DNA from: Astropecten irregularis
Lineage: Eukaryota > Echinodermata > Asteroidea > Paxillosida > Astropectinidae
NCBI GenBank assembly: GCA_963971285.1
Contig: OZ020249.1
Coordinates: forward strand, 2,418,001 to 2,482,000
Reading direction: 5' to 3'
DNA length: 64,000 nucleotides
Position 1 is the first letter of the stretch. Each line of letters opens with the position of its first letter. A model generated the notes under the pieces. It made no database searches and was not told the DNA's origin. It saw only the letters and a list, made by a program, of their open reading frames with translations. The translations under genes were made by a program, and so were the position numbers. Positions 7,384 through 38,780 of this stretch are shown here, piece after piece.

Positions 7384-8377
7384 TTGCCAACTACTGGGAT
7401 CTTCTCACAGCTGTAGCTGATCAATCTCACTGTAGTGCTTGTCACTTGTGGATTTCTCTTGATTCGCTTCAGTGTGCTCTCCGAGATGATGTTTGCTTGC
7501 GCTCCATTATCTATCTTTAGTTGGAGACGTTTTTTTTCACCTTTAGTTTAGTGAACTCAGTCTTTTGCCTTGTCTCCTCAGTTTGTCTCTTCACGTGTGC
7601 CCACTGGGCCTTTAAAGAGCTCTTCTAATGCCATGTGTATAGCTGCAACATTTGGCATAATGATTGCGTTTCTTGCACTAGAGTCAAATCTGTCTGAAAG
7701 CTGGACAGCTTCTTCGAGGATGTGTTGTTCTAGATTTGGTACATGTTTTACTTTGTTTCTGCTGGGCCTTGGCTTCTTGGCTCCTTTTTCTTATGCTTAG
7801 GCTTTACTCCTATTTTATGGACAGTTGTTGCCACGTTGGTACTTTCTCCACTGGCACCGCTGCTCAGGCTTTCAATCTATGTTTTGCTTGCTTCTGCAGC
7901 ATGGCAGATTTCTGGCTAGATCTATGTTACTTTCCCTGAGCTGAGCATGTGCTCTCGAACCACATCACTGGTTTAAGGCTGTGCATCTAAATTTAATTTA
8001 CTATCCATTTAAATCAATTTTTTTTTACACCAATTGTCTAACCTTGATGTTGACTTTGCTTGAAGAACTCAAGAATGCCTTTGATGTGTTAGATTTTGCA
8101 GTATGTCTTAAATGTTTCCTTTATTTTCTTGAGGTTTTCTTTGTCTTCCGGTTGTTCCCACTTATATGTTGTGCAGTCGCATCACGTCCTTTCCCGCTGT
8201 GGTTAAAAAGAGTGCCGTTTTCTAGTTGTCGGGTTTACTGTTCTTTTCGGTGGCGAGCATGTACAGTTCAAATTGCTGCACAAACCATTTGCAGTTGTCC
8301 GCTAGATTACCCTGTAATATGACAACCCTTTTGGAAGATCTATTTTGTCCATTTTTATGGACTGTCAAGACGTTTAG

Positions 8378-8388
8378 TTCTGACACCA
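8378..8388 (-). other. Primer-binding site, tRNA-Leu type
   Basis: On the minus strand TGGTGTCAGAA directly follows the 5' LTR. It is complementary to the 3' end of animal tRNA-Leu, which ends TTCTGACACCA. This supports the orientation and the LTR boundary. Confidence 0.8.
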
Positions 8389-8501
8389 TGTAGTAACACG
8401 TTTTGTTATTTTGTGTATCCAACAACATGATTTATTCATGATCCACAATCAACAATACAATCACATGAGGGCACTATATAACATTATTGAAATACATGAC
8501 A
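8389..8501 (-). repeat. 5' LTR of the Gypsy-like element
   Basis: This 113-bp repeat starts TGTAGTAACACG and ends ACATGACA. It is followed by the AAATC duplication on its outer side and abuts the primer-binding site on its inner side. It matches the ends of the 245-bp LTR at 3143-3387. Confidence 0.88.
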
Positions 8502-8506
8502 AAATC

Positions 8507-9005
8507 TATATATAATTACTGGTACGTGTAATTTGAATCCTCATATTTGTCTTCATGTAGGTAGAAACATGTCCTTGCCACGTGTGTGACAATGAAGCAG
8601 TCAAACTTTTATAACAAATTATATCAATAAACTTTCACCAAGGAAATCTTTTGCATCAAACAGAAATAAAGGGTGCACAAAAAGAAACTAACATTGAATT
8701 TGACGCCTTAACCCTTTGTAAAAAGGTGCAAACCAAAACTTGCACTATTAAGTATACAGTGCGTAGCTGTGTGTAACCCATTGTTGACCCAAACAGTATT
8801 GCCCTATGCAATGTAGCACATGGTAAGTTCCTGTATATCTAAAAGGAGAGGTCGTCAAAATCAATGGAAGTTTTTTTTTTCACCCTTCAGTTTTATTTTT
8901 CCCTTGATCTACATAATGGTATGCATACATATCTTTGTCTTTGTCAATTTTATAAAAGTAGTTACATTTATTGTATTAAATTGTTTCTATCTGTTTTATT
9001 CACAG
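8507..9005 (+). other. Unique sequence before the first visible CEP85 exon
   Basis: Mostly AT-rich with a T run at 8870-8880 and a polypyrimidine-like end leading to the CACAG acceptor. I see no N-terminal CEP85 coding sequence here. Confidence 0.5.
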
Positions 9006-15500: not shown

Positions 15501-18500
15501 GTACAAAATACATACCATCATTGCATGTGTTGTTTCCATTACATTCAGCAATATCTTTCAATGTTTATAAAACGCTGTGTACAAATTGTGTAAAATATGT
15601 GGTTATTTTTTATGCCTGGCTTTGACGGCTCGCCATAGTTTCCACCATGTTGGTTGGCAAAAACTCTGGCTGTGACGTTGCAAAAGAAATGTCTGTAGGA
15701 AGCCATCAATGTAAAGCAAAAACATACAGATGATGAGTGTTGGTTCAAAGTTATTGTTGAACTGTTGAATGTTATGGAAACAAATCATACAATAATGGGT
15801 TGGAATATCTTGTTATATAATGTTTCTACAAATGTTGAATTTGGTCACATTGTCTATCAAAAAGATCAATTCTTTGCAACTATTGACATGACAACAGTTG
15901 TTTGAGGTTCTCGAGGTTCTTGTGAATGAATTCATGAATTTTCTTCATTTAAGCCACTTAAGTGCTATTATATTTTGCTTTAAATGGAGCAGATATGAAA
16001 CCATTCCTTTACATTAATACATCAGTTTGGACATAAGGATTATTGCCTCATCTTCATTTCCAGATTATCCCTGGCTCAAATTGATTAAAGGTACACGCCG
16101 GCTTTGTTTGGCGATTTGGGGCGCTTATTTGCGCCAATGCATGCATTTACCATGGCTGGAAAGGTCTTCAAAAAGTTGAATAGAACTTAACAGAAAGGTC
16201 TATTGTTTTCATGTGATCATTGTGATAGCTCCATTTCCAGTCATTTAAAAGCTTTTTAACCATACAAAATTTACGTATAACTTTTTGTTTAATCACTCTT
16301 TTTAACCAAAACAGGTAATGATTTGACCTAAGTGTTCCCTTTTTTAATTCAGGAATTTCCAACACGAATGGGCAAAACAAATACATGCCAAATTAAATTT
16401 TTTATAAAAGACTGGTCATTGCGGGTGCATTACCACCTCTGCAAAAACAGTGCGTTGGGGCTTGTGATGCATTCAGCCCAAGGCATGGGCCCGTGATAAC
16501 CAGTGCGGTCCATCCACGCACGGACGTTCGTGTAGTATTTTTTATGCGAGACCGCGCGGCCTGCAAGTTGACTGAGTCACTCACCCGGTCCCTTTAATTT
16601 TTTTGGGGGGGCGGGGGGATTTTCGAGCGGAGCAGTAAAGCCTCGAGATAATTTCTTGTCATACATTAGAATCATTTCATGCACTCAAAATATTTTTGTG
16701 TCATTATCAAAATTATATTTTGTGTATTCATGTGGAAATTGTTTCGGTCACTCGAGGGCAGATCTCAATATTTATGGACGTTATTCCTAAATAATTGTTT
16801 CATCGATCATTCCCCCAAAATCCTTTTGTGAAATACACTGCGTCAACTTGCAAACATTGCGTCAACTTGCAAACATTGCGTCAACTCGTTAAGTGTTCTA
16901 GAAATATTGTGTTATACTCTGCACTCTTAATTGTTTGGACTTTGAAGCCGGCATGTACTTTAACAGTGAGGTGTAAAAAACATCCTGCATTTCCAATCCA
17001 GTTTTTCAACAATATACATGTAATTGAGTCAGCGTTTTTTGTAAAATGTATACCTTCAAAATCGTCATTGCTTCTGCCAGTTGTAGTGCCCTTTTATTGA
17101 GATGGTTGCAATGTCTTTTTGCTAATAATGTCCCAAAGTATTCCCTTCATTTGCAAAGCTGGCAATTTTGATCTGAAATTACAGGTATGATAATTATCAA
17201 ACGATGAAAAGTGTATAAAAATTACATTAGAATCAATGATTTGATGGTACCTAACAAGTATTTGTTTTCTATGTGGATCGGTTTGTGGAAACACCAGGCC
17301 TTAATTTTTAAGGAGAGTGAGAGTGATCACTCTCCTCCGCTCTCCTTAATGTTTTCCAAGGAGAGTGAAAAAAAGAGGTCCTTAACAATTTAAGGAGAGC
17401 TGCTTTCTTTCAAAACATCACATACATTTTTCCCTTTATGGCAAATGCAAAAAAGTAATATTTGTTTATAATCTTTTTTAACAGGACAAACACATTATTG
17501 TGCATCTTTTTCTGACACAGGACACAATGCGAACACGTGGTTTAGCAAGAGCAAACTGCTCTCTTTATTCACTAGTATGAGTAGGCCCTACATGTATGTT
17601 GATTATTTTAAGGAGTTGGATTTGCAGCTCAAACCTGATTTGTGTTAGTGAGAGCAAATCACTCTCCTAAATTCTCTACGTTGATTTAAGGAGAGCGATT
17701 TGCAGCTCTCCTCATTTTTATTAAAATAAAGGCCTGAAACACCATGTAATAATCGTACGTACTTACGCACTTCTATATCGTTCACACTTCTCGCAATTAG
17801 GTCTCAACGTTAGTCCTTTTTTGTTTCCTTTTTACTGATATGAATAGTACTTCCTTCTAGTCTGTGACTCCATGGCTGATATGCCACTACATTGTGTCAT
17901 GACTTCTTAAGAATAATGGTACGTATTAGAATAGTATCAACCTTTTATTATTACATTGATGTACATGTATATGTTTGTGCCACAGGAGTACCAGTATGAA
18001 AATGCCTCTCTCAAGGCTCAGCTTTCTGAACATTCCTCCATTAAAGCAGTAGAAATGGAACAACTTAACAAGAAACTTGGGTATGTACATGAACATTGCA
18101 CATTACTTTGATCACACTGACAGATGGAGGGATAATTCGTCCATTTAAATATGAATTGGGGCAAGAAATTAGTTGGGTTATTTTACACAGAGACCCAAGT
18201 CTCTGACATGTGAATCTTTCTGGTTTAACCAGAATTCCACTTTTTTCCCTTCAAATTTGTGGTCTTCAAGTTCAGTGTAAAAATGGAATAATCTTTGGGG
18301 GTTGAGTTGGAAGGGGGTAAATGTTGGTTGACCACTTGGCGCTCAGAATTTCCTTCTTTTTATTCCCATGAAATTTGTATGGAGAGTCAAAATAATATCT
18401 TTGCGATTTTCTAATCGGAGTCGGCCACACTGCAGCATTATATGACGTATGCTTATAAGCATAAATCAAGTAATATGTGCTATATTTCTGGTCAAACAGG

Positions 18501-21500
18501 GTTGGTCTTCATGATACATGTACATTCTTTCAGATAACCCTTTTATTATTCCCATATACCCCACTCCTTGGCAGTAATTTGTTCACACTCACTTCGCGTT
18601 TAAACTTTAACAGAAATTGGGGTAGGCTAATTGTATATTTTAAAATGAAAAATATATGTTTGTATTTCTGTTTGTATTCTTTGTGCAGACTTTTTTAAAT
18701 AGTTTCTCTACAGTTTTGCTTAGTTCTCAATTTCCTGACATGCAAGGCATCTTGCCATGTCGGTCTGAATTGAAATGTACGTGTGTGAGAAATGAATGCT
18801 TATTCACCAAGTTGAATGCTTGCCAGATTGCTGTTTAAGGCCTTTGACGATTTTGAATGCACAACATTGAATTTTAAAGACCGGATTTTATGGAAAAAAT
18901 GTTAAAATAACAAAATGTAACGACTTAGTTTTAATTTTGAATGCCCATGTGGACAAGCATTCATTTTAAATTGAACTTAATCAAGCCTTGTGTTAAATAA
19001 GTCAATGGTCTATGTTGAAATTGGCCGGGAAAACCATTACAGATAATGTGGAAAAGGAGAAAAGGAGAAGATTTTGCTTCAATAAATCAGTGGAAAAGGG
19101 GCAAGGAATCGCCTCAGATTACATCATAAAGCATTACATTCCAAAATTGTCTGGGCCCAAAGCAGGCCTCAGAGAGTACACCATAAGAGCTTTGCGCTCA
19201 TGGTAGTCTCTTCATGACCAAGCTCATCACAAATCATTTTCAGGTTTTTTCTTAAGTCCCACTCACATGCCTGCAAGTCAAGCCAGTGTTGTTTACTCGC
19301 TATTATTTACCTGAATTAGGTTCTCAATATTGGTGCATTATTTAACCATGTTAACCTTTAACATTCAAATAGGATTGACAAATAATGTACATTAAGTAGT
19401 TGAGCTCATTCAATTCTTTTCAAATTTTTCCAAATCTAAATTATTTTTCCTAGAGAAACTGAGTATGAATATCAGCAACTGAAGAAAGTCTGTCAAGAGG
19501 CAGAGAAGTCAAAGGTCATGGAATTAAAAGAGTTGGAGCTAAAGGTATTGCCATAATATTTTTCCTTTCATTTTAGAGTAAACATAGAAGATTTACTGAA
19601 TGACTGGAGCAGGGATTCATCAACTTCTCTACTTATTGTTTCCAATTGTCATAGATTTCAAGATCAACAGCACTTTCATTTTAAAGGACTTAGAATGTTC
19701 AATATGCAGGCATTGATGACTGTGTCAAGTATCGAAGCACACTTGTCACTTTGGCTGCTGCCCTGTCATGCCATGGAGATACTTTGCCAACCCAGAGTGG
19801 TAACACCATAAATCTAGCTCAATTTAGGACAGTCAATGCTATACATAGTGCATGTGTTTTGTGTAAGGGAGCATGGGATATAAATGCTCATTCCGGTACC
19901 TGAAATGCAGTAAACATAATATGTTAATGTCATAGGCCCAGCCTTTTTTTTTTTTTTTTTTTTTTGCCTTATTAAAAAAACATTTACACTAATTTTTTCA
20001 TTCAAGTTATCAAATGGAAGCTGATTACCTTTCCCACTGTACATTTTTGTTTCGTTTATTCCATGGATGTATTTCATGAACCAACCAGCTTTTATTTAGT
20101 GTTTATTCACTCATTAATAAAGTTTCCCGATGCCAAGACCAGTAAAATACCGATACCACAGGAGATGAGACCTAGACCGCGACCACTGGGTGTGAGACCG
20201 AGATCGATACCTGTAAAAAGTGGTCTTGAGACTGAAACCAAGACCTGTCTCGAGACCTACAACACTGTACGCAACCATTCCCAGGTCAGGGCTTCACACC
20301 CTACGTGTTGCTTAATGCCATGTACATGTATTAATTATGATTGAGAAATTCAAACCATTATACATACATAAAGATACACTGAACACAGAACCTCCGAACT
20401 GCACTGATGTGAATTAGTCTATCAGGAAAGATCTGCCAAAAAAAAGTGTCATTTGACCTTTGTTCAGTTGCAAGTTGAATCCACTAATATGCTGCTTTAA
20501 TTATCTCAAGGATCAATAAAGATGCTGTGACATCCAAAACACTTCAAACCCTAGTAATGAAAGTTGCAAAGAATGTAACAAAGGTACATGTATTGTAGGT
20601 GTTTACAATGTTTGCCAAGACACATGTTTGACGTTTCTGCAGTCCACTTTGGATACAGTATTTGTTCAGATTTTGGGTGGGTTTCTTTGGTAGTTCTAAA
20701 ACCCTCTTGACCCACAACCCCCTAGACCCGACACTGTCCTTAATCGGGCAGGGGCCACGGTGAACTGTAGGCCAGGTTCGAAGACAGCCAAAGTGCAAAT
20801 CTAATTTCTGGCCTGATACCTAACCCCAAATTAGTTTATTGTCTGGGCTGCCAAAACAAGAAAAGACGAGGCCCTTTTTTAGATGGCCAAGAGTCGTGTG
20901 CAATTTCCGGCCACAGCCAAGTGATTCAGACACGGTACACGGACCAGGTGTGCCTCTGAATAATGTGTCCCAGTTTATGACACTACCCGATTAATGATTA
21001 GCGGCATGCAGCCTGTACATCAGCCATGGCGTGCACGTATCTCCATGCACCTATGTACAATCAATCAATCAATCAGTGGGATCATGCACTGTGCTAGTGA
21101 GTTGCTGCATCTACCTTTGAGTGGTACTCCTTCGGTCGTCTGACCATCCCCCAGGCAGCCACATCTCCATCTCAGCGAAATACTGATCCATCTGATGCAA
21201 CCACGTGTAATGTACAAAGGCCGATATATCGTATTTCCATCAAGACGTATAGGTTGTTTGTACCCTGCGAGGCACTACCTCCCTCCTTCTGCTCTATCTA
21301 TATAAATATACAATATGGAGTACTGTAGTCATATCTGGGCCCTGTTAGACAGAATCCAGCGGCGAGCCATCATTTTGGTGGTTCTTGGTTCGGCCTCATC
21401 TTTGGAACCCTTATCACACCGCCGCTCTGTGGCCTCACTGGCCTTATTCTATAGGTACTATTATGGACGATGTTCTATCGGTACGGTATCTCTGCCTTGG

Positions 21501-24500: not shown

Positions 24501-27500
24501 GGTCCCAGATCCCGCTTCATCCCCTGATCCCATTTGCATTTTACACTCAACGTTGATCGTGCGTTGATCGCCGTCTTGGGATCTCCTCGTGGTATCAAGT
24601 GTAAAGACGGTATAGGTCCCTAGTCAATTAACACTTCCTTGGCAACACTCCTGATCTCCAGCATCAATTTCCTTTGGATTACACTTTATTATCTGTTCAA
24701 CATGTTCAATGTACCTTGTACCTTATTTTTGATTGCATTATGGTTTCTTAATTCATTTTGAATTTACATTGTTTATTTGATGAGAGAAACTTTAGAAACT
24801 TTCATTTGATACCGTTGCTGAAAATTAATCCTTGAGGTAGTGTTCATATTATTGATTATTGACTTTTAATACAAGTTAATGACCCATCTTTTTAATCAGA
24901 ATGGCAATCGGAATGAGGTCTATTGAAATAAAATCGATGATGTCTTTAATTTTTAATGACGGAAATGTATTTTGTTGTAATATGTGTTACAAAAGTTTTT
25001 AACAACAAAAAACATGCTACATGTATAAGTTTTGTTATTGGAGCAAACCGTTGTGATTTTTTAAATGAAAATGCATGTGTGGTACGTCTACAGTTTTAAG
25101 ATTGGTAACACATTTCTGTTGGGAGAGTTTACATGATCCTTAACTATTGTTTCCTTTTCACAGATGAATCAAAAAGATGAGAGTAGGGAAGAGATGAAAG
25201 CTAAGTACAGTCGCATCAAGGAGAAGTATGACAAGCTGAAGAAACGAGTTAGTAGCTTAGAGAGATATATGGGAGATTTACCCACTGCTGAACAACACCT
25301 CAAGAATACTGAAGTCATATCCTTTAAAATTTACATGGAATAAGAAATGTCTCCACCACTGCCGCCGATTCATCTAAAGGCATGAATTTTTTCATAGGTA
25401 GTGTAGTAGCTGGAGATGCTTACACTGGAGCCATTTTATTATGATATCCTGGTTGAATCTATTAAAGAGTAAGATTCAATGTGTTTATGAATAATTTTGG
25501 AATAGTCTGTTTTGTTCTTCAAAGAGAAATACACAATGAAAATGCTTTTGTTTTTGTTTGAGGGAAGATATATTAAATTATTTGGCCTTGACCTTTGGCT
25601 GCACATCAAGAATTTATGTGACAAGGAGAAACTTCTTAAGGAACGCATCTCTCAGCTGGAATCATCACTTGCTGAGGCTAGAAATAACGTTCTTGACAGG
25701 GACCTGAGAGTCAGTCAACTAGAAAAGATGGAATCTGACCTAAATATTGAATTGAGAAGGTATGAAAGCCACTTGAATGCGTTTTTATTCCCCTTGTTTA
25801 TTATTATGTTTATCATATTATTATTACTATTATATTGTTAACAGCTATGTTGGAGGCAGGCGCGGTTCTAAAGGGGGCTGTAGCCCCCAACATTTTGTCT
25901 AGTCCCCCCAAAAAATGCAATTGAAAAAACAACAACTTGAGAATACTAGATCTTTCCAGTTATTAGGCGCCAATTACATAAAAAAAACTTGTAGTGTATG
26001 TTATAGTTGCATGTTTTTCGACCCCTAATAAGACATAGCAGAAGCGAGTGTTATTGGAAGAACCCAAAATATTGGGTCTTCTTGCCCCCCAAAAGAATCA
26101 TGGCTCTTCTAGCCCCCCACAAATATTGGCTCTAGAACCACGCCTGGTTGGGGGAAACGTTTTGCTATAAAAGTGAAGTTTAGGTGGAAATCAGACATTA
26201 AGGGGAAAAGGTAAAAGATATAAAATATATAAGATAAGATATATTTAAATGTTCTCGAATATATATATATATATATATATAGAGGCTATTTAACATATAG
26301 GGAGACCAGTTTTCATATAGTCAGCGAAGGTTTTGGTGACCACAGTACTTAGCACAACATTTGGAGGTCGCCTTAACATCCTATAGCTACCTTTAAAAAA
26401 ATGTTTGTCGTCCAAATTTTGATATAAGACAGAGAATGCTCTCAATATGAACATAATGTCAATTTCAAGTTCATCGGTTTGGAGGATGTTTAGAAATATG
26501 TAAGTAAAGTCTTGTGCACAACCCTATTGAAATGTGGCCATGTTATTGGAAAAAGTAGTTCTATATGTATACTCACTGTACATGTGCATGAACCTGTATA
26601 ATAATTTATGTGTCAAAATTTGTGGAAATATTAAGTATTTATTCAGCATTGCCAACCAATTTTCAAAAGTCACCACTCAAAAGCTATGTGCCAGCCCCTA
26701 ATCTTGATGAATCGCTCAAATACATTTTCAGGGTGGCGTCAATTAGACCAAAAAGTCCAAATGAAACTCATGTTGGCCTATTAATGGCAGCCTACCTGTC
26801 AGTTAGTCCTGTCACCCTTTAAACTATGGGGATTTACAAAACAGAGGCTCAGGCTTGGGCTACAGCTCTGTCATCCATATGCTGAAAATATAGGTTGTGG
26901 TTTTCCATTGGAGCTGAAGCTCTGTTTTCCTTTGCAAACCAGAGAATCTACGTCTGAACCGCAGCAAAAAACATCTATTTTGATACCCGTTATTTTAGAA
27001 TTGATTCACGAAATGGACCCAGAGCCTGAGCCTCCTTTTTGTAAACGCCCTTTTAGTCATCTTGGTTCAATCAGAGTTTTTTGTAGATTTTAATCTTTCT
27101 GGCAGACATCTTGTAAACATGTCCTATTTGTGGGCCCTGTATATTTTGGGGAAAAAAGGAGTGAAACAATGACCAAAATTATAATACACATTGTCCTATG
27201 ATCTACAATATGCCCATGAGAAAGTGCACATCAGTGGATTGTTTGTTACTTCATGTACATGTTTGATAAGACATGGTGTGAATAATGTTCTTCGATGCGA
27301 CCTTTACAATCATATCTCATTCCTGTTTTAAATATGGCATCCATTAGGAAGTATGAATGCTCCTGGCTTTGCAGATGCTAGTGGTTATTCTGTAGTGAGA
27401 TACACTTCTGATTAAAAATCTTGGGACAGTGTATCATACAAATCTGTCATCATACTTTGTTTCATATTATTTTTCTTCTAGCCTTCGGCGTGAAGCCAGT

Positions 27501-30500
27501 CGTCTGCAGTCTCTTCTGGGTGCCCCTAAGGATGCTGATCCTGCTGACTTGAAGCTTTTTAGTCATACAGCCATGGAGGAGTTGATTTTGGAAAGAGATG
27601 AAGCAAAATCAGAGGTTGATAAACTTAGAAAGGCAAGTTGTATGTGTAGTATTTTAATATTGAGGTCATCCTACCTGCATTACAGGTGTATCTTAAACCA
27701 CTGATAAAGGGCATTTTTATTAAACATACAACAATTTGCCTTAACCAATGAATAGTTGACCCAATACTCAAACTCGTGTTGTTGTGTTTTGTTTAATATG
27801 TTACAATGCGCGAGACCCCTTTGCATGTGCCAATGTGCCGTCAATCCCATGGCAACCGGTTTTAATCTGAAAATGTTTTGAAAAAAAATAATAGTAAACA
27901 GGTTTTGGAAAGGGTATTTCCACTGTGGATTTCCATCATATGATATCCATGATGACGGTTAATGTGGGCAGGGTTTTGTTTTTGTTCTGTTTTTTTCTTT
28001 CTTCCTCTTCTTGTTGTTGCCGGAATTCCCATAGACTTTGCACATGGGCATTGTGGACTAAGGCTGAAACGATACGCCTGTGTCGCGATACGATACGTAT
28101 CACGATACATGCCACACGATACGATATATATCGTGATATTTCTTGGTTTAAAATAAATAAATAAATAAATTCAAAACATATGAACTTGGTTCATCAGGGT
28201 GTCAGGCCTCTTTAATGTTTCTCTTCAGGTATAACACATTCTGATAATACATGATGCAGTAAGGTACTAAAAGTACAAATGAACTGAACTACAGATCCGT
28301 GTTAAACGATTTAATCGCCTTTTAAATGACAACGCTAGCGGGCGGCGATCGTGTTCAGTGAAGAAGAAAATTGCCTGAATAAAAGCAGTGTTGACAGACG
28401 GTATGGACATTAAGCTTGTTTGATATGACGATATTTATCGATATCGCAATATTTTTTTCATATGGAAAATCGTATCGGGTCCCGGAAATTTTTTTTTGAA
28501 ATATCGGGAATATCGCGATATTTTTATGGTGGCGCAACTTTATACCAAAAAAATCAGAGTAGCTCATGAGCTAACAGAGCTACTTTTTGCACTTTTCGCA
28601 ACGACCAAAACAAACAGATTACTGCAAATTTTGTTGCTGGTTGTGACATTAAAAGCATATTTCTTACCGCAAAATCTGCACCGAAGCCGACCAGGAGTTA
28701 CCCATGCCGTCCATGAATCAGAGCGCTACTTCACTTGACAGCACAAGTCATGTCCATGTACATACGCTGCATTTCCGGCCTTCATGACTGAAGCTGACAC
28801 GTGCGCTGGCCGTGCTGACTTCACTGAGCCGAGAGCACGTGCATGCGATGCCGCGTTGCACACAATTACATGTACATGTACATTGTGCAATGACTATGCT
28901 TGCCGCTTCCTGCCAACATGACTGAAGCTAGCAGCGTATTTGGGCTCACGGATTGGGCGCATTACACACAGTGTGGTTGCTGTATGCGTGTACGTGTACG
29001 TGTAAACCATGCGATCGCAGATAAAAGCCCATGGTTGACCGTTGTGTACTGCGTGAGCTCTGTCATCCGTAGGAGCGCTGCGCTTTTCGGCAAAAAAGTG
29101 GCATTTTCTTCTGCTTTTATACGAATATTTCTGGGTGTTTTTTTGCAGTAGGCTAATTAGACATTTATGTGACTTTCAGCATGTTTTGTAATAAAATTTA
29201 TGTTTTATATTATTATCAAAAATACCGATATCGAATGTTCGTATCGATTAAGTCGTATCGTGACTGAATGTATCGCGATGCACCGATATATCGATGTATC
29301 GTTTCAGCCTTATTGTGGACCCCACTACAGCACTTTTAAACAGCCGAAGTCCCTATGCATAAGTTGCTGAACACTTACATCATCATGATGTCATCGTAAG
29401 TCACATGCCAGCGCCTTAATAAAGGGGTAAACTTCATACATTAATTATGAACAAACCCTAGGTCCGATTGCGTTTAAACTTGGTATGTATATAATTTGGA
29501 AAGTCTTATATTGATAAATTGCAATGATGTCATAATGACATCATCATGTTTCATGTGACATCTTCTTAAAGGGGCAAACTTCATACATCAATTATGAACA
29601 AACCCCCTAGGTCTGATTGGGTCAAAACTTTGTAAGTGTTTTATTGATAAATTGCAGTGATGTAATAATGATGTCACCATAATGTCATATTAAAGGGGCA
29701 AATACTGCAATCTGTTAGTTGCCCTTATACATTTGTTTTGGGCTACTTCCTGTATAACCAGAAGTAGAGATCACAGGGATCAAGTAATGTGTCACAAAGA
29801 AAGTTTTTACCCATGATAAAGATTTGTCCTCATGCAAACATGATTATTGCTGATTAAAATAATGACTCCAGACACAGTTTGGATAATTTATTGAACAATT
29901 ACGACATTCTTAAGTGAAATGTGTACTTCCAATGGTCCGACCGTTACGGTCTGGAGCTTGCATGTACAGTAGTGTATTTGTACATACATGTACATTACAT
30001 ATATCCATGTCCACTTGCCTGTCTTCATTTACACATTGCGCCGCTCCAACCATGTTTTTGCACATTATTGTTGGTGTCTCTAATCATAACCCTAAATGTG
30101 TTTGCAGTAAACTAGTTTTGCTTGGCCTGTCGCACAAGTGGGAAATATTCAATTTTTATAATGGTATCTTTCATGAATCATATATATACTCAATTTTTAG
30201 TTGATCATCGCGCTAATTGGTTCTGATACGGACAATAGTGCATCACAAGCTTTTACTAGGTGCGGTGCAATGATTGCAACCTACACTCGCAAGACCGCCA
30301 GCGGACTGTACCCATGTATACGGCGCACCCCATCTTTTGATTTTGGCCGAGGTGAAAAAAGTGTGCCTTATACATGGAGTCTACTGCATTCAACCTACCC
30401 CAGACGGTTACTACTATATGCAAATTCCCCTGCGCCAATTTGCTGCTTCGCTGAAAAGACTTGATCAACCGTGGTGCACCCTGACCTCCCACAATGCATA

Positions 30501-36500: not shown

Positions 36501-38780
36501 TGCATATAGTAGTAACCGTCTGGGGTAGGTATGAACTAGTAGACTCAACCCACAACAGGTGGGGGGGGAACTTATAGTACGTGCAAAAAACCTACATTTA
36601 CATTAGAATATTGGCAACATCTGAAGATTTTAATTCCAGATTGTCTCTCCATCAGATGATTGAAAGTAAACACAGAGAACTTAAGACACAGCAGTCACAC
36701 CATCAAAAGGCTTTGTCTGGACTGGAGGAAAGACTTCAACAGGAGGAGGATACAATCACGGCTTTGAGAGAGACTAGTCGATCTAAGGAGGAACACTTAA
36801 GAAAAATGAAAGAATCCATGACAGCGGTAATAATCAGGCAATTCTTTTCTAATTAAATTTTTTATCTAAAGTAGATTTAAACTATCTTACCACAAAATTC
36901 TGTACCGTGGGACCAAGTGTGATGATGTTTGGTCAGTGTTGTATCAGGCTTGTTCTTGTATTTATTTCACCATTCCAGCTGGCCAAACAGAGCCAAGAGC
37001 TTTATGAACACAACTTGGATGTCCAAGAGCGAAACCAGACCTTAGAGAAGATTGCTTCATCTGATGTGTTGCAGGCTAACCATCATCTCATCAAGGAGCT
37101 TGAGGAGTGTGTTGCTGAATTACACGGTCTAGTCCAAGTATGCACACAGAGAGCAGAGGGACAAGAACCCAATGTGTCTGTACTTCTACGCTTCAGAGGT
37201 ATGTTGATGACGTCTTTGTTTTTAAAAAGTATGATTGTTAACATTATTTAACATCAGACTTTAATCAAGCTTAGCATAGTCAAAGTTTTAGGGGCATTGA
37301 ATAAAGAAATAAATTAAGGCCACCAAATTTTAATGGAGGGAAAAAATGCTTGCCACTGCTGAGGCTTAAAAATAAATGCCTATAACTTCCAGGCCATACA
37401 GATGACTTAATAGTCCTAACCAATGGTGCAGATTCTTCCGCTGTGAGGGGCAAACACCACCGAGCTAGTTTCCATTGGCTAGGGAAAAATACGAGGGAGA
37501 CCTGTCTTTGCCGACACAAACTTTCAGGGTATGACCTCAACTGGTAGTGGTGAATGTAGTGTGTAGAGGGATTAATTGCTTCTGGCAGGTCCACACCCTA
37601 TGTTGTCAACCTGCATCAGTGGGCAAATTAAAACAACAAATCTGTGCGTCTTCTGTGTACAATTAGGTCTTTATTGTTACCTTCACCTGGCCATATTTTT
37701 GATGTGAGTAATGGGATTCGCTACAAGGTATTGGAGAGCGATATCTTTGTGTTGGCATCAGGTGTCCAGTTATAATTTGTTATTTGAAAATCAGTGTGAA
37801 TAGCGCTCCGCACTTGCGCTAAAAATAGCACCAGATCTCAGACAAACACTGCATCCATGCAAACGTGTGTGTGTGTGTGTGCGCGTCCATGTACACTTCA
37901 TGAGTGAGGCAATGTTTGTCTGACATCCGGGGATTTTGTGACGTCATTAGTGTGGAACGCTATTAAACAGTGAAGTGATCTTGCTTAACATTTTACAGTA
38001 ATGTATTGGGTACATGCACATGTAGATAGGTCTTCATTTTTTCAAGTTCCTGTCCTTGATCTTGTATTGGCATTGCTCTGTTCTTGTTCTTGTCTTTGTT
38101 TTGTGCAAATGCCTGGTATTTTGTTTGTAATGTTTGATTTCCATTCATTTTGCTTTTGTTAAGCATTTATTCAACTTAGTTATAAGTGCCAGTAATGTAT
38201 CTGTGTGGTAGATCATTATTATTATTTTTTTTAATTCTTTTTATCGGTTTATTTCATAAAACAAATAATGCTCAGTATGGCAACTGGAAGGTTGAATTGC
38301 ACTACACATTCGTACATAAAAGGTTTCTGAATTAAAAGTGTCTTAAAAAATTTATGAATATTTTAAACAAGAAAGTAAAAAAAGAAATTACTGGAAGTTA
38401 TATAACACTGAAATTGTGTGAAGTGAAACTGCTCAGTCTTACTAAAGTAATATATATTTTTTTCATTCTGGGGTAGCAACAAAAGAATGATGCCTAAAAA
38501 GTGTGTTTCACATAGATCTCTGTTAAGTATTGATCATGCTTTAAATAAGTCCATTGTTTTTTCGGAGTAATGGTAATAATGGTGATTTTGCTTTCATCCA
38601 CCAGCCCCAAGCTTCAGCAGCCTTGAGACCCAAGGAGCAGAAGGTGGTCAACTTACCCCAGACTTATTACATGGAAGATTGAAACAGGTTAAAGAGCTAC
38701 GAGTAGAGATTGACCGACTTCGTAGCTTAGTGTCCAACAAATATGCTGAAGACATGGGAAATGAATGTATTACCCAGTAG
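9006..38780 (+). CDS. CEP85: CEP85/CEP85L orthologue, centrosomal coiled-coil protein (5'-partial, 11 exons)
   Basis: Join: 9006-9592, 11569-11714, 14389-14509, 17986-18080, 19454-19544, 25164-25316, 25605-25759, 27482-27632, 36656-36826, 36979-37198, 38605-38780. All phases agree and give 687 residues. In vertebrates CEP85 is a centrosomal protein that restrains NEK2-driven centrosome separation and works with STIL and PLK4 in centriole duplication. Recognisable family landmarks are DATLNQS (human STLNQS), LERYMGDLPT (human LERYLADLPT), CTQRAEGQEPNVSVLL (human VTQRAQGHDPNLSLLL) and the C-terminus NKYAEDMGNECITQ (human DRYAQDMGENCVTQ). Residues 1-190 are low complexity and the rest is mostly coiled coil. 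Human CEP85 is about 760 residues, so roughly the first 60-80 residues lie on exon(s) not seen. The orthology is firm. Whether it is the single ancestor of CEP85 and CEP85L is inference. Confidence 0.93.
9920..10364 (+). repeat. Unclassified interspersed repeat R1, copy 1
   Basis: About 445 bp that recurs inverted at 29844-30377. Shared words include GCTGATTAAAATAA, CTCCAGACACAG and GATAATTTATTGAACAAT on the opposite strand, the CATCGCGCTAATTGGTT block, and GCATCACATGCTTTTACTAG. No coding sequence, terminal inverted repeat or A-tail is evident, so the class is open (a LINE 3' end or a long SINE). Confidence 0.7.
10582..11022 (+). mobile_element. Foldback-like element with 16-bp minisatellite arm
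   Basis: From about 10838 to 11022 a 16-bp unit (GGCGTACGAGTTGGTT with variants) repeats about ten times. The opposite-strand version of the same unit (ACTCGTACAC and CCAACTCATACGC) lies at 10590-10612, so tandem repeats form inverted arms around a 150-bp middle. This is the layout of foldback elements. Open frames across it are artefacts of the repeat. Confidence 0.6.
11569..11714 (+). CDS. CEP85: CEP85 exon 2
   Basis: The acceptor is TTTTCTCCATTGCAG and the donor is GAAAG|GTAAAA. It enters in phase 0 and leaves in phase 2. It encodes the linker SPQFGQYLGTLEGVIRAKEN and the helix start LLEEKNLVIER, parallel to human LNSNEHLLKEKELLIDKQR. Confidence 0.9.
11758..11946 (+). mobile_element. hAT-type MITE with 8-bp target duplication
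   Basis: This 189-bp element has ends CAGTGGTGCACCC and, inverted, CACCGGCGCACCC. It is flanked by perfect CCGGTACT copies (11750-11757 and 11947-11954). The interior is homopolymer-rich (long C and G runs). The 8-bp duplication and the CAG terminus fit hAT. It inserted 40 bp downstream of CEP85 exon 2. Confidence 0.85.
13669..14035. mobile_element. MITE with about 45-bp terminal inverted repeats
   Basis: The left end TTATATAACACCTTAGTAGA and the right end, inverted, TTATATAACATCTAAGTAGA continue through GTCATTTGATTGGAGGAT on both sides. The element is 367 bp with no coding capacity. I could not read a clear target duplication, so the superfamily is open. Confidence 0.75.
14038..14202. mobile_element. 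Near-complete palindrome (foldback MITE)
   Basis: Arms of about 80 bp pair across a 5-base centre. ACAAATAATGAATGTTT is matched by AAACATTCATTATTTGTA, and GGTGACAGATGGACTGT by ACAGTCCATCTGTCACC. It starts two bases after the previous MITE, so one probably inserted at the edge of the other. Confidence 0.78.
14389..14509 (+). CDS. CEP85: CEP85 exon 3
   Basis: The acceptor is GCACAATTACAG and the donor is GTACAG|GTACAT. It enters in phase 2 and leaves in phase 0, encoding 40 residues plus the split one. The coiled-coil stretch LELAHSQDQLRQKQEQERQF is followed by TRVQEDKGDFLLIKVQ, which corresponds to the human VRESELQVHSALL to LLRLQ part. Confidence 0.88.
14980..15255. mobile_element. tRNA-derived SINE fragments arranged head to head
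   Basis: At 15202-15230 GCTGGTTCGAATCCAAC is a pol III B box followed by CTCCAGTCAATTTTGCTTTG. The inverted version (GATTGACTGGAG...ATTAGAACCAG) lies at 15155-15190. CACAAGGGAAACTGACTG at 14984 and a variant at 15103 match the tails of the related copy at 41313-41410. At least two SINE pieces meet in opposite orientation. Confidence 0.65.
16611..16900 (+). repeat. Interspersed repeat R2, copy A (short minisatellite)
   Basis: Matches the right edge of the window in order: GATTTTCGAGC, GATAATTTCTTGTCATACAT, ATTATATTTTGTGT, TCATGTGGAAAT, ATCGATCAT. It ends in about three copies of the 19-bp unit AAACATTGCGTCAACTTGC. The copy at 63171 carries about 21 units. Confidence 0.75.
17272..17805 (+). 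repeat. Fragment related to the long LTR of the Gypsy-like element
   Basis: GTGGATCGGTTTGTGGAAACAC at the left and CACTTCTATATCGTTC plus ACACTTCTCGCAATTA at the right match the central block of the LTR at 3143-3387. A 440-bp MITE splits it. Only this block is recognisable here, so it is either an old LTR piece or a separate repeat that the LTR also carries. Confidence 0.55.
17296..17735. mobile_element. hAT-type MITE with perfect 8-bp target duplication
   Basis: This 440-bp element has inverted ends AGGCCTTAATTTTTA and AGGCCTTTATTTTAA and is flanked by GAAACACC on both sides (17288-17295 and 17736-17743). Subterminal AAGGAGAG and CTCTCCTT motifs repeat many times in both orientations, like transposase-binding arrays. 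It has no coding capacity. Confidence 0.88.
17986..18080 (+). CDS. CEP85: CEP85 exon 4
   Basis: The acceptor is TTTGTGCCACAG and the donor is CTTGG|GTATGT. It enters in phase 0 and leaves in phase 2. It encodes EYQYENASLKAQLSEHSS and MEQLNKKLG, matching human LQRENTFLRAQFAQK and KIDLEKKLS. Confidence 0.88.
18081..19453 (+). other. CEP85 intron 4
   Basis: GT-AG intron of 1.4 kb. I see no mobile element or gene in it. Confidence 0.8.
19454..19544 (+). CDS. CEP85: CEP85 exon 5
   Basis: The acceptor is ATTTTTCCTAG and the donor is CTAAAG|GTATTG. It enters in phase 2 and leaves in phase 0. The encoded coiled coil is ETEYEYQQLKKVCQEAEKSK and so on, without an obvious hallmark of its own. It is placed by its phase and by its position between recognised exons. 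Confidence 0.85.
21310..21730 (+). mobile_element. LINE fragment (C-terminal end of a non-LTR reverse transcriptase)
   Basis: Translation gives MEYCSHIW, LLDRIQRRAIILV, SLEPLSHRRSVASLALFYRY and YGRCS, the tail typical of CR1/Jockey-group LINE reverse transcriptases. In another frame it continues toward ATLPAFSRALLHYL (the SFFPRTARLWN-type region). It is a short, frameshifted relic. Confidence 0.72.
22555..23211. mobile_element. MITE with CAGCWGMTGATTTCAYGAAA ends
   Basis: The left end CAGCAGCCGATTTCATGAAA and the right end, inverted, CAGCAGCTGATTTCACGAAA frame 657 bp rich in short AAGACG and CTTAG motifs in both orientations (such as AAGACGCGTCTTAG and GATCGATCTTA). No transposase and no clear target duplication are visible. 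Confidence 0.75.
23513..23628. mobile_element. Short foldback MITE
   Basis: GGAGACTTATGAGAACC at the left and GGTTCTCAAAAGTCTCC at the right enclose further inverted sequence (CAAGTCAACAGCGCA with TGCGCTGTTGACTTG). The whole 116 bp can fold into one hairpin. Confidence 0.72.
24368..24506. mobile_element. Short MITE with GATTTCACTAA ends
   Basis: GGAGCCAATTTCACTAATG is answered by CTTTAGTGAAATCGGTCCC. The termini resemble those of the elements at 22555 and 42035. It sits inside a region where TTACACTCAAACATTGATC-type words recur (about 24226, 24302 and 24542), which may be an older host element. Confidence 0.6.
25164..25316 (+). CDS. CEP85: CEP85 exon 6
   Basis: The acceptor is TTCCTTTTCACAG. 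It encodes 51 residues with the family signature VSSLERYMGDLPTAEQHLKN (human IETLERYLADLPTLEDHQKQ). I end the exon at 25316, after the codon GTC, because the next bases are ATATCCTTT, the U12 AT-AC donor consensus. With that end, the spacing between the PT of DLPT and the next conserved LES motif is 24 residues, the same as in human CEP85 as I recall it. Confidence 0.9.
25317..25604 (+). other. CEP85: Probable U12-type AT-AC intron of CEP85
   Basis: The intron starts ATATCCTTT, a full match to the minor-spliceosome AT-AC donor, and ends in AC. CCTTGAC at 25586-25592 fits the U12 branch-site consensus CCTTRAY, with its A 13 nt before the intron end, the usual distance. Both flanking exons are in phase 0, and this junction keeps the residue spacing of human CEP85. 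The GT-AG alternative (GAA|GTCATA to ATCAAG|AAT) has a poor donor and drops three residues. Confidence 0.85.
25605..25759 (+). CDS. CEP85: CEP85 exon 7
   Basis: It follows an AC acceptor (GGCTGCAC|ATCAAG) and ends at AGAAG|GTATGA. It enters in phase 0 and leaves in phase 2. It encodes coiled coil including LLKERISQLESSLAEARNN, parallel to human LQEKVTELESLLEETQA. Confidence 0.88.
25857..26146. mobile_element. hAT-type MITE with near-perfect 8-bp target duplication
   Basis: This 290-bp element has ends CAGGCGCGGTTCTAAAG and, inverted, CAGGCGTGGTTCTAGAG. It is flanked by GTTGGAGG and GTTGGGGG (one mismatch). GCCCCCCA-type words repeat near both ends. It lies about 100 bp after CEP85 exon 7. 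Confidence 0.83.
26258..26282. repeat. (AT)n microsatellite
   Basis: An alternating AT run of about 24 bp in CEP85 intron 7. Confidence 0.8.
26829..27052. mobile_element. MITE with GAGGCTCAGGCT inverted ends
   Basis: GGATTTACAAAACAGAGGCT at the left is answered by AGCCTCCTTTTTGTAAACGC at the right, with CTCAGGCT and AGCCTGAG adjoining. It is 224 bp with no clear target duplication. Confidence 0.65.
27482..27632 (+). CDS. CEP85: CEP85 exon 8
   Basis: The acceptor is TTTTTCTTCTAG. It encodes SLRREASRLQSLLGAPKDAD through AMEELILERDEAKSEVDKLR. I place the donor at AGAAAG|GCAAGT, a perfect GC-type donor, because the next exon then continues LRK|MIE in line with human LQK|IVE. A GT a few bases later (AAGTT|GTATGT) is possible but would change the phase of the next exon. 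Confidence 0.87.
28059..29312. mobile_element. hAT-like non-autonomous element, 1.25 kb, perfect 8-bp target duplication
   Basis: The perfect inverted ends TAAGGCTGAAACGATAC are flanked by TTGTGGAC on both sides (28051-28058 and 29313-29320). Subterminal runs of GATACGATAC, CGATATATCG and similar words form arrays near both ends, typical of hAT transposase-binding regions. I see no transposase frame, so it is probably mobilised in trans. The perfect ends and duplication suggest a young insertion. Confidence 0.9.
29413..29700 (+). repeat. Tandem dimer, unit about 150 bp
   Basis: The words AACTTCATACAT, AATTATGAACAAACCC, AGGTCYGATTG and TTGATAAATTGCA each occur twice in the same order, about 150 bp apart. 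A third partial unit starts at TTAAAGGGGCAAA near 29692. Confidence 0.7.
29844..30377 (-). repeat. Interspersed repeat R1, copy 2 (interrupted by DIRS copy B)
   Basis: The inverse of the repeat at 9920-10364. It carries two extra blocks relative to copy 1. At 30377 it is cut by the DIRS element and continues on the other side as AACTTATAGTACGTG from 36569, matching AACTTTACGGTACATG in copy 1. Confidence 0.7.
30378..36568 (+). mobile_element. DIRS-like tyrosine-recombinase retroelement, copy B (both ends present)
   Basis: The left inverted repeat (about 30378-30535) is answered by the right one (about 36391-36568), which has an extra tail ending ACAACAGGTGGGGG. This unequal design is known for DIRS elements. 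Near 36236-36315 an internal complementary region joins the reverse complements of both ends. A recombinase-like stretch at about 35460-35900 parallels that of copy A. There is no target duplication, as expected for recombinase integration. The coding region is broken in many places. It lies wholly inside CEP85 intron 8. Confidence 0.85.
36656..36826 (+). CDS. CEP85: CEP85 exon 9
   Basis: The acceptor is TGTCTCTCCATCAG and the donor is ACAGCG|GTAATA, for 57 residues in phase 0. The stretch LQQEEDTITALRETSRSKEE aligns without gaps to human VAQEEGTSQALREEAQRRDS. The exon starts only about 90 bp after the right end of DIRS copy B. An alternative acceptor at 36639 (AATTCCAG) would be out of phase. 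Confidence 0.9.
36827..36978 (+). other. CEP85 intron 9
   Basis: A short GT-AG intron (152 bp) with a good polypyrimidine acceptor. No other content. Confidence 0.88.
36979..37198 (+). CDS. CEP85: CEP85 exon 10
   Basis: The acceptor is TCACCATTCCAG and the donor is TTCAGAG|GTATGT. It enters in phase 0 and leaves in phase 1. It encodes QELYEHNLDVQERNQTLE and the highly conserved LVQVCTQRAEGQEPNVSVLL, one of the best family identifiers. Confidence 0.93.
37199..38604 (+). other. CEP85 intron 10
   Basis: GT-AG intron with one MITE (37799-37964). Nothing else is recognised in 37210-37790 or 37970-38590. Confidence 0.8.
37799..37964. mobile_element. Short MITE (AATAGCG...family), copy 2
   Basis: Ends AATAGCGCTCCGCAC and GTGGAACGCTATT form imperfect inverted repeats around CAGACAAACACTGCAT and a short GT run. 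It is the inverse of the copy inside the Gypsy-like element at 5088-5217. Confidence 0.75.
38605..38780 (+). CDS. CEP85: CEP85 exon 11, C-terminal
   Basis: The acceptor is CTTTCATCCACCAG and the stop is TAG at 38778-38780. It encodes LKQVKELRVEIDRLRSLVSN and KYAEDMGNECITQ, matching the human C-terminus (LEEVQQLRRDIEDLRTTMSD and so on). The reading frame ends at the same position as the human protein, so the C-terminus is complete. Confidence 0.95.

Follow-up and report, generated by a model that had tools for sequence, protein, structure and literature searches.

Is the coding sequence of the CEP85 gene of Astropecten irregularis interrupted by a minor-spliceosome intron with AT-AC ends? This question was raised by an earlier note on the window studied here, by which we mean the whole 64-kb stretch of DNA (contig C12:2418001-2482000), and we addressed it using the window together with searches of the 475.7-Mb genome assembly (168 contigs). 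The analysis led us to conclude, with a probability of roughly 0.92, that positions 25317–25604 are a U12-type (minor) spliceosomal AT-AC intron in this CEP85 gene. We favor this reading, as the earlier note had done, because both U12 motifs are present with suitable spacing and no good GT donor exists where one would be needed, and because the genome also contains four minor snRNAs, CENATAC and an AT-AC U12-like intron elsewhere.

Sequence and placement of the intron

The putative U12-type AT-AC intron comprises 288 nt on the forward strand (25317–25604, window coordinates, like all positions given below unless another contig is named), starting with ATATCCTTTAAAA and ending with GGCCTTGACCTTTGGCTGCAC. 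Its U12-type 5' splice site, ATATCCTTT (25317–25325, +), has the complete consensus, and its U12 branch-point sequence, GGCCTTGAC (25584–25592, +), would place the branch A at 25591. The CCTTGAC core of the branch site is intact and only the first two positions differ from the consensus TTCCTTRAC, with GG replacing the leading TT, a deviation that would count against the U12 reading. The 3' end is AC (25603–25604, +), the final bases being GCAC, and lies 13 nt past the branch A; in U12-type introns the branch A is found about 10–15 nt before the 3' end. Donor, branch site, spacing and AC end were thus all found exactly where they had earlier been described. U12-type AT-AC introns typically lack a polypyrimidine tract, and the pyrimidine fraction at the 25604 acceptor was 0.67, with a range of 0.60–0.80 for eight other acceptors of the CEP85 gene. 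Acceptor pyrimidine content does not separate 25604 from the U2 acceptors of the same gene, which may count against the U12 reading.

The flanking exons were in phase 0, as the earlier note had also held. The coding exon before the intron (25164–25316, +, preceded by the acceptor TTTCACAG) ends with ...LERYMGDLPTAEQHLKNTEV and closes with the full codon GTC, and the coding exon after it (25605–25759, +, IKNLCDKEKLLKERISQLES...) opens with ATC and, as judged from its frame, ends in phase 2 before GTATGA. Phase 0 is disfavored among minor introns, at 22% on average according to the accessible text of PMC10639083, and counts against the U12 reading. If the intron is not spliced, the frame reads through for 8 residues (ISFKIYME) and then meets a stop. 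A twintron, with U2 introns nested in one another, was considered and dropped as judged by eye, the frame meeting a stop at 25341–25343. Rfam profiles run against the 64-kb window at gathering scores gave 0 matches.

Identity of the host gene

The gene is supported as a member of the CEP85/CEP85L family, as either CEP85 or CEP85L, because of its Pfam and PDB matches and its colinear alignment to a provisional human CEP85 sequence. The assignment to CEP85 made in the earlier note thereby gained support at the level of the family. A query of exons at about 36.7–38.8 kb, joined by hand, matched Pfam CC4_CEP85 (PF24555) with an E value of 1.6e-13 and 51.3 bits (cut-off 27.3), and matched the CEP85 chain of PDB entry 5oi7 at E 8.3e-4. 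The human CEP85 sequence, which in all alignments was a provisional one, aligned colinearly to the window at 9.2, 18.0, 25.1 and 25.6 kb, these being the best 4 of 16 rows; the other 12 had E values of at least 0.25 and were mostly misordered or on the opposite strand. The gene accordingly has in common with the CEP85/CEP85L family both the CC4 coiled coil (PF24555) and, relative to the provisional human CEP85 sequence, four exon stretches in the same order.

In addition to the two exons flanking the intron, CEP85 exons on the same (+) strand could be proposed upstream at 17986–18080 (EYQYENASLKAQ..., from its frame and the alignment to human CEP85) and 19454–19544 (ETEYEYQQLKKVCQ..., from its frame), and downstream at 27482–27632 (SLRREASRLQSLLG..., from its frame, followed by GCAAGT) and 36656–36826 (MIESKHRELK..., the start of the CC4 coiled coil by PF24555 and 5oi7). 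These four and the two flanking exons gave a joint translation without any stop. The last coding exon (38605–38780, +), ending with ...NECITQ and TAG, was read by eye. The gene model is partial, with exons before 17986 or after 36826 identified by eye and possibly others in addition. The intron following the exon at 27482–27632 starts with GCAAGT at 27633 and is apparently of the GC-AG kind, the next exon found being the one at 36656, in frame.

When the four middle exons were used as a protein query, the 4 genome matches obtained all fell within this one gene, giving a single genomic locus of the CEP85 family in Astropecten irregularis with these exons. The genome search revealed no retrocopy or paralogue showing the spliced junction at E 0.001, the single DNA match being the window itself. 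When the two flanking exons were searched against the PDB, none of the 7 matches with E values up to 10 was a centrosome protein, and the best reached E 0.015.

Alternative splice readings

The only GT within 25300–25341 is found at 25314, with possible AG partners at 25610 or 25562. A major-spliceosome GT-AG intron at 25314–25610 would keep the reading frame and remove VIK from the protein. We consider this very unlikely, since its donor (GAA/GTCATA) scored −2.01 when the six other donors of the gene scored 5.58, 5.42, 5.64, 3.67, 7.33 and 3.63, using human frequencies for U2 donors, and since the complete U12 donor three bases downstream of that GT would then be a coincidence. With AT-AC splicing, DLPT and LES are separated by 27 residues, and with the GT-AG rival by 24. 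The rival product is indeed three residues shorter, as had been noted before, and the count of 24 that the earlier note had given for the AT-AC product was wrong and belongs to the GT-AG product. The claimed equality with human CEP85, for which we presume 27 residues in this interval, still stands for the AT-AC product. Alignment with the provisional human fragment gave the AT-AC product a score of 136 without gaps (26/70 identities) and the product resuming at 25611 a score of 133 with a 3-residue gap, the latter having 27 identities and thus one more than the AT-AC product. The protein alignment would therefore prefer AT-AC splicing over the 25313/25611 junction only mildly, and it is the splice sites that appear to decide.

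Other pairs of major-spliceosome sites can be formed, either as an intron at 25314–25562, which adds GRYIKLFGLDLWLH before IKNL, or by joining in-exon donors after 25247 or 25225 to 25563 or 25611, and all of these are in our judgment extremely improbable. The acceptor before 25563 has a pyrimidine fraction of 0.87, higher than in the eight other measured acceptors of the gene, but the 25313/25563 junction depends on the same weak donor and its product aligned with 13 gap positions and a score of 115, compared to 136 with AT-AC splicing. The in-exon donors score better than that at 25313 (3.11 for 25225 and 2.88 for 25247), and joins from 25247 keep the frame; however, those joins remove VSSLERYMGDLPT...EV, including LERYMGDLPT and thereby the stretch closest to the provisional human CEP85 sequence, and joins from 25225 shift the frame. 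It is hardly more conceivable that the major spliceosome would use the AT-AC ends themselves, as in the sodium-channel introns exemplified by SCN4A intron 21. The terminal AT and AC are as such compatible with an intron of that type, but those introns have G at +5, according to the accessible text of PMC2831892, whereas the donor at 25317 has C at +5, within ATATCC.

Chance expectation

The occurrence of the U12 motifs by chance was estimated using a background of 13 loci of 10 kb each (130 kb, or 260,000 bases over both strands). The exact donor 9-mer occurred twice in these 260,000 background bases, and the window, with its 128,000 bases over both strands, has a single copy. Branch sites at least as good as that of the intron, with an AC at 10–17 nt past the A, were found 35 times in the 260 kb, and pairs of donor and branch site with AC, separated by 60–3000 nt, once. 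The single exact donor of the window pairs with 3 possible acceptors, and chance alone would be expected to produce the motif pair in a sequence of this length. The rarity ascribed to the intron in the earlier note was thus not upheld for the donor motif by itself, and what stands is its in-frame place between exons. The joint chance that an exact donor falls within the 42 bases allowed and that one of 39 allowed places holds an in-frame acceptor was about 1.7e-6, a rough and post hoc estimate made with hand-set weights and presuming that some intron has to separate the two coding exons. The case for 25317–25604 is consequently made by the in-frame location between coding exons, the motif alone being insufficient.

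Minor-spliceosome components and control introns in the genome

An Rfam search of the genome gave one match each for U6atac (139.2 bits), U11 (100.7), U12 (132.2) and U4atac (87.4), all exceeding the Rfam cut-offs. CENATAC/CCDC84 gave 5 matches above cut-off at a single locus, two of which read past a stop, as is expected where matches overrun an exon. The donor ATATCCTTT has a pairing potential of −6.5 kcal/mol with the genome's own U11 and −6.4 kcal/mol with its U6atac, and the branch site GGCCTTGAC one of −4.8 kcal/mol with its U12, these energies being calculated for short fragments, without a shuffled control and with the bulged A outside the model.

As a positive control we selected the sodium-channel gene, guided by intron 2 of human SCN genes, which we take to be U12-type both in class and in position. 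In the same genome, a voltage-gated sodium channel gene was found to have an AT-AC U12-like intron of 759 nt in domain I (C21:18315189-18315947; ATATCCTTTT...TTCCTTAACTCTTTTCTCAC), the second such intron of this genome. The donor ATATCCTTTT at C21:18315189 is followed by TTCCTTAAC and by the AC at 18315947, with the branch A at 12 nt from the end, and the spliced product MMYLLCNQFFDVFVILTILVNCGF is in frame. This intron is in phase 2, whereas the CEP85 intron is in phase 0 and has a different host gene.

Two further loci gave negative results. Intron 21 of human IPO5 is a minor AT-AC intron (PMC8280824, accessible text), and the IPO5-like locus, which served as the second positive control and was covered over about 13.9 kb by three overlapping loci, had no [AG]TATCC[TC][TC] donor; the IPO5 intron is either absent in this form from the stretch read or located outside that stretch. 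The CENATAC locus (9.7 kb) also lacked a [AG]TATCC[TC][TC] donor, and these negative scans at the IPO5 and CENATAC loci count against the U12 reading. Downstream of the IPO5-like exons (C27, locus L030, about 8080–8590) there are repeats reading WRCLICRYLHHWLISSLVMEMLNLQISSSLVNLIPGDGEA, together with variants thereof, in several frames.

Relation to known minor introns and possible meaning

Animal U12-type AT-AC introns, such as that of sodium channel intron 2, share with the CEP85 intron the ATATCCTTT donor, the CCTTRAC element and a branch A 12–13 nt from the AC, and the intron at 25317–25604 is a credible further example of this well-known class. In the accessible texts of the following sources, minor introns make up near 0.3% of introns in vertebrates, with a comparable density in the starfish Asterias rubens (PMC10639083); the AT-AC share of human minor introns is 24% (PMC8280824) or about 26% (PMC10639083); and human U12 introns are kept as such in approximately 20% of comparisons with invertebrates (PMC2831892). 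With the latter degree of conservation, human CEP85 need not carry such an intron. Our search, which had supplementary tables outside its scope, found no literature linking CEP85 to a U12-type intron, a minor intron or the minor spliceosome, or CEP85L to a minor intron, and large intron databases may well already list the intron at 25317–25604.

Motifs, spacing, frame, machinery genes and pairing potential are what was seen here; actual splicing in this manner is inferred, and any regulatory role would likewise be an inference. In the proposed course of events, U11 would pair with ATATCCTTT and U12 with CCTTGAC, leaving A25591 bulged, whereupon U6atac would take the place of U11 at the 5' site and the minor spliceosome would excise 25317–25604, so that V (GTC) is followed in frame by I (ATC). 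CENATAC would probably assist, as it is reported to do for human AT-AN introns. The CEP85 intron would be of the same subtype as the human CENATAC-dependent A-type (AT-AN) minor introns (described in the accessible text of PMC8280824), and a CENATAC orthologue is present in the genome. Full-length CEP85 would in that case depend on the minor spliceosome, since the unspliced frame stops after 8 extra residues.

If spliced as read here, CEP85 would belong to the genes that cannot yield their full product without the minor spliceosome, and its intron, more specifically, to the AT-AN subtype served by CENATAC. According to the accessible text of PMC8280824, depletion of CENATAC in human cells affected 92% of the A-type minor introns, and the protein is also found at centrosomes and suppresses centriole over-duplication; CEP85 is reported to bind STIL and to serve as a centriole duplication factor (PMC5928214, accessible text). 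With these roles of CENATAC at the centrosome and of CEP85 in duplication, the intron offers a testable link between the two; otherwise, 25317–25604 would be one more minor intron of a deuterostome genome. We regard as improbable the more far-reaching idea that an old, conserved A-type intron makes CEP85 CENATAC-dependent and that its retention lets minor-spliceosome activity set centriole duplication in echinoderm eggs or embryos.

Other contigs of the assembly

The mitochondrial COX1, on contig C168, contains AAA at 4 codons; genetic code table 9 renders these as Asn, in contexts where Asn is conserved (QIYN, INMR, VNTTFF, WNTVSS), and renders AGA as Ser and TGA as Trp. Since table 9 is used by echinoderms and flatworms and this COX1 has an echinoderm-like appearance, the mitochondrial sequence points most likely to an echinoderm. 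Two further COX1 matches were observed elsewhere in the assembly. The match at C131:32162-33484 has a 552-aa open frame without internal stop and is perhaps bacterial, in which case its contig would come from a symbiont or contaminant, and that at C25:9951047-9952018, on a contig of 14.4 Mb, contains 7 TGA and probably represents mitochondrial DNA that was copied into the nuclear genome.
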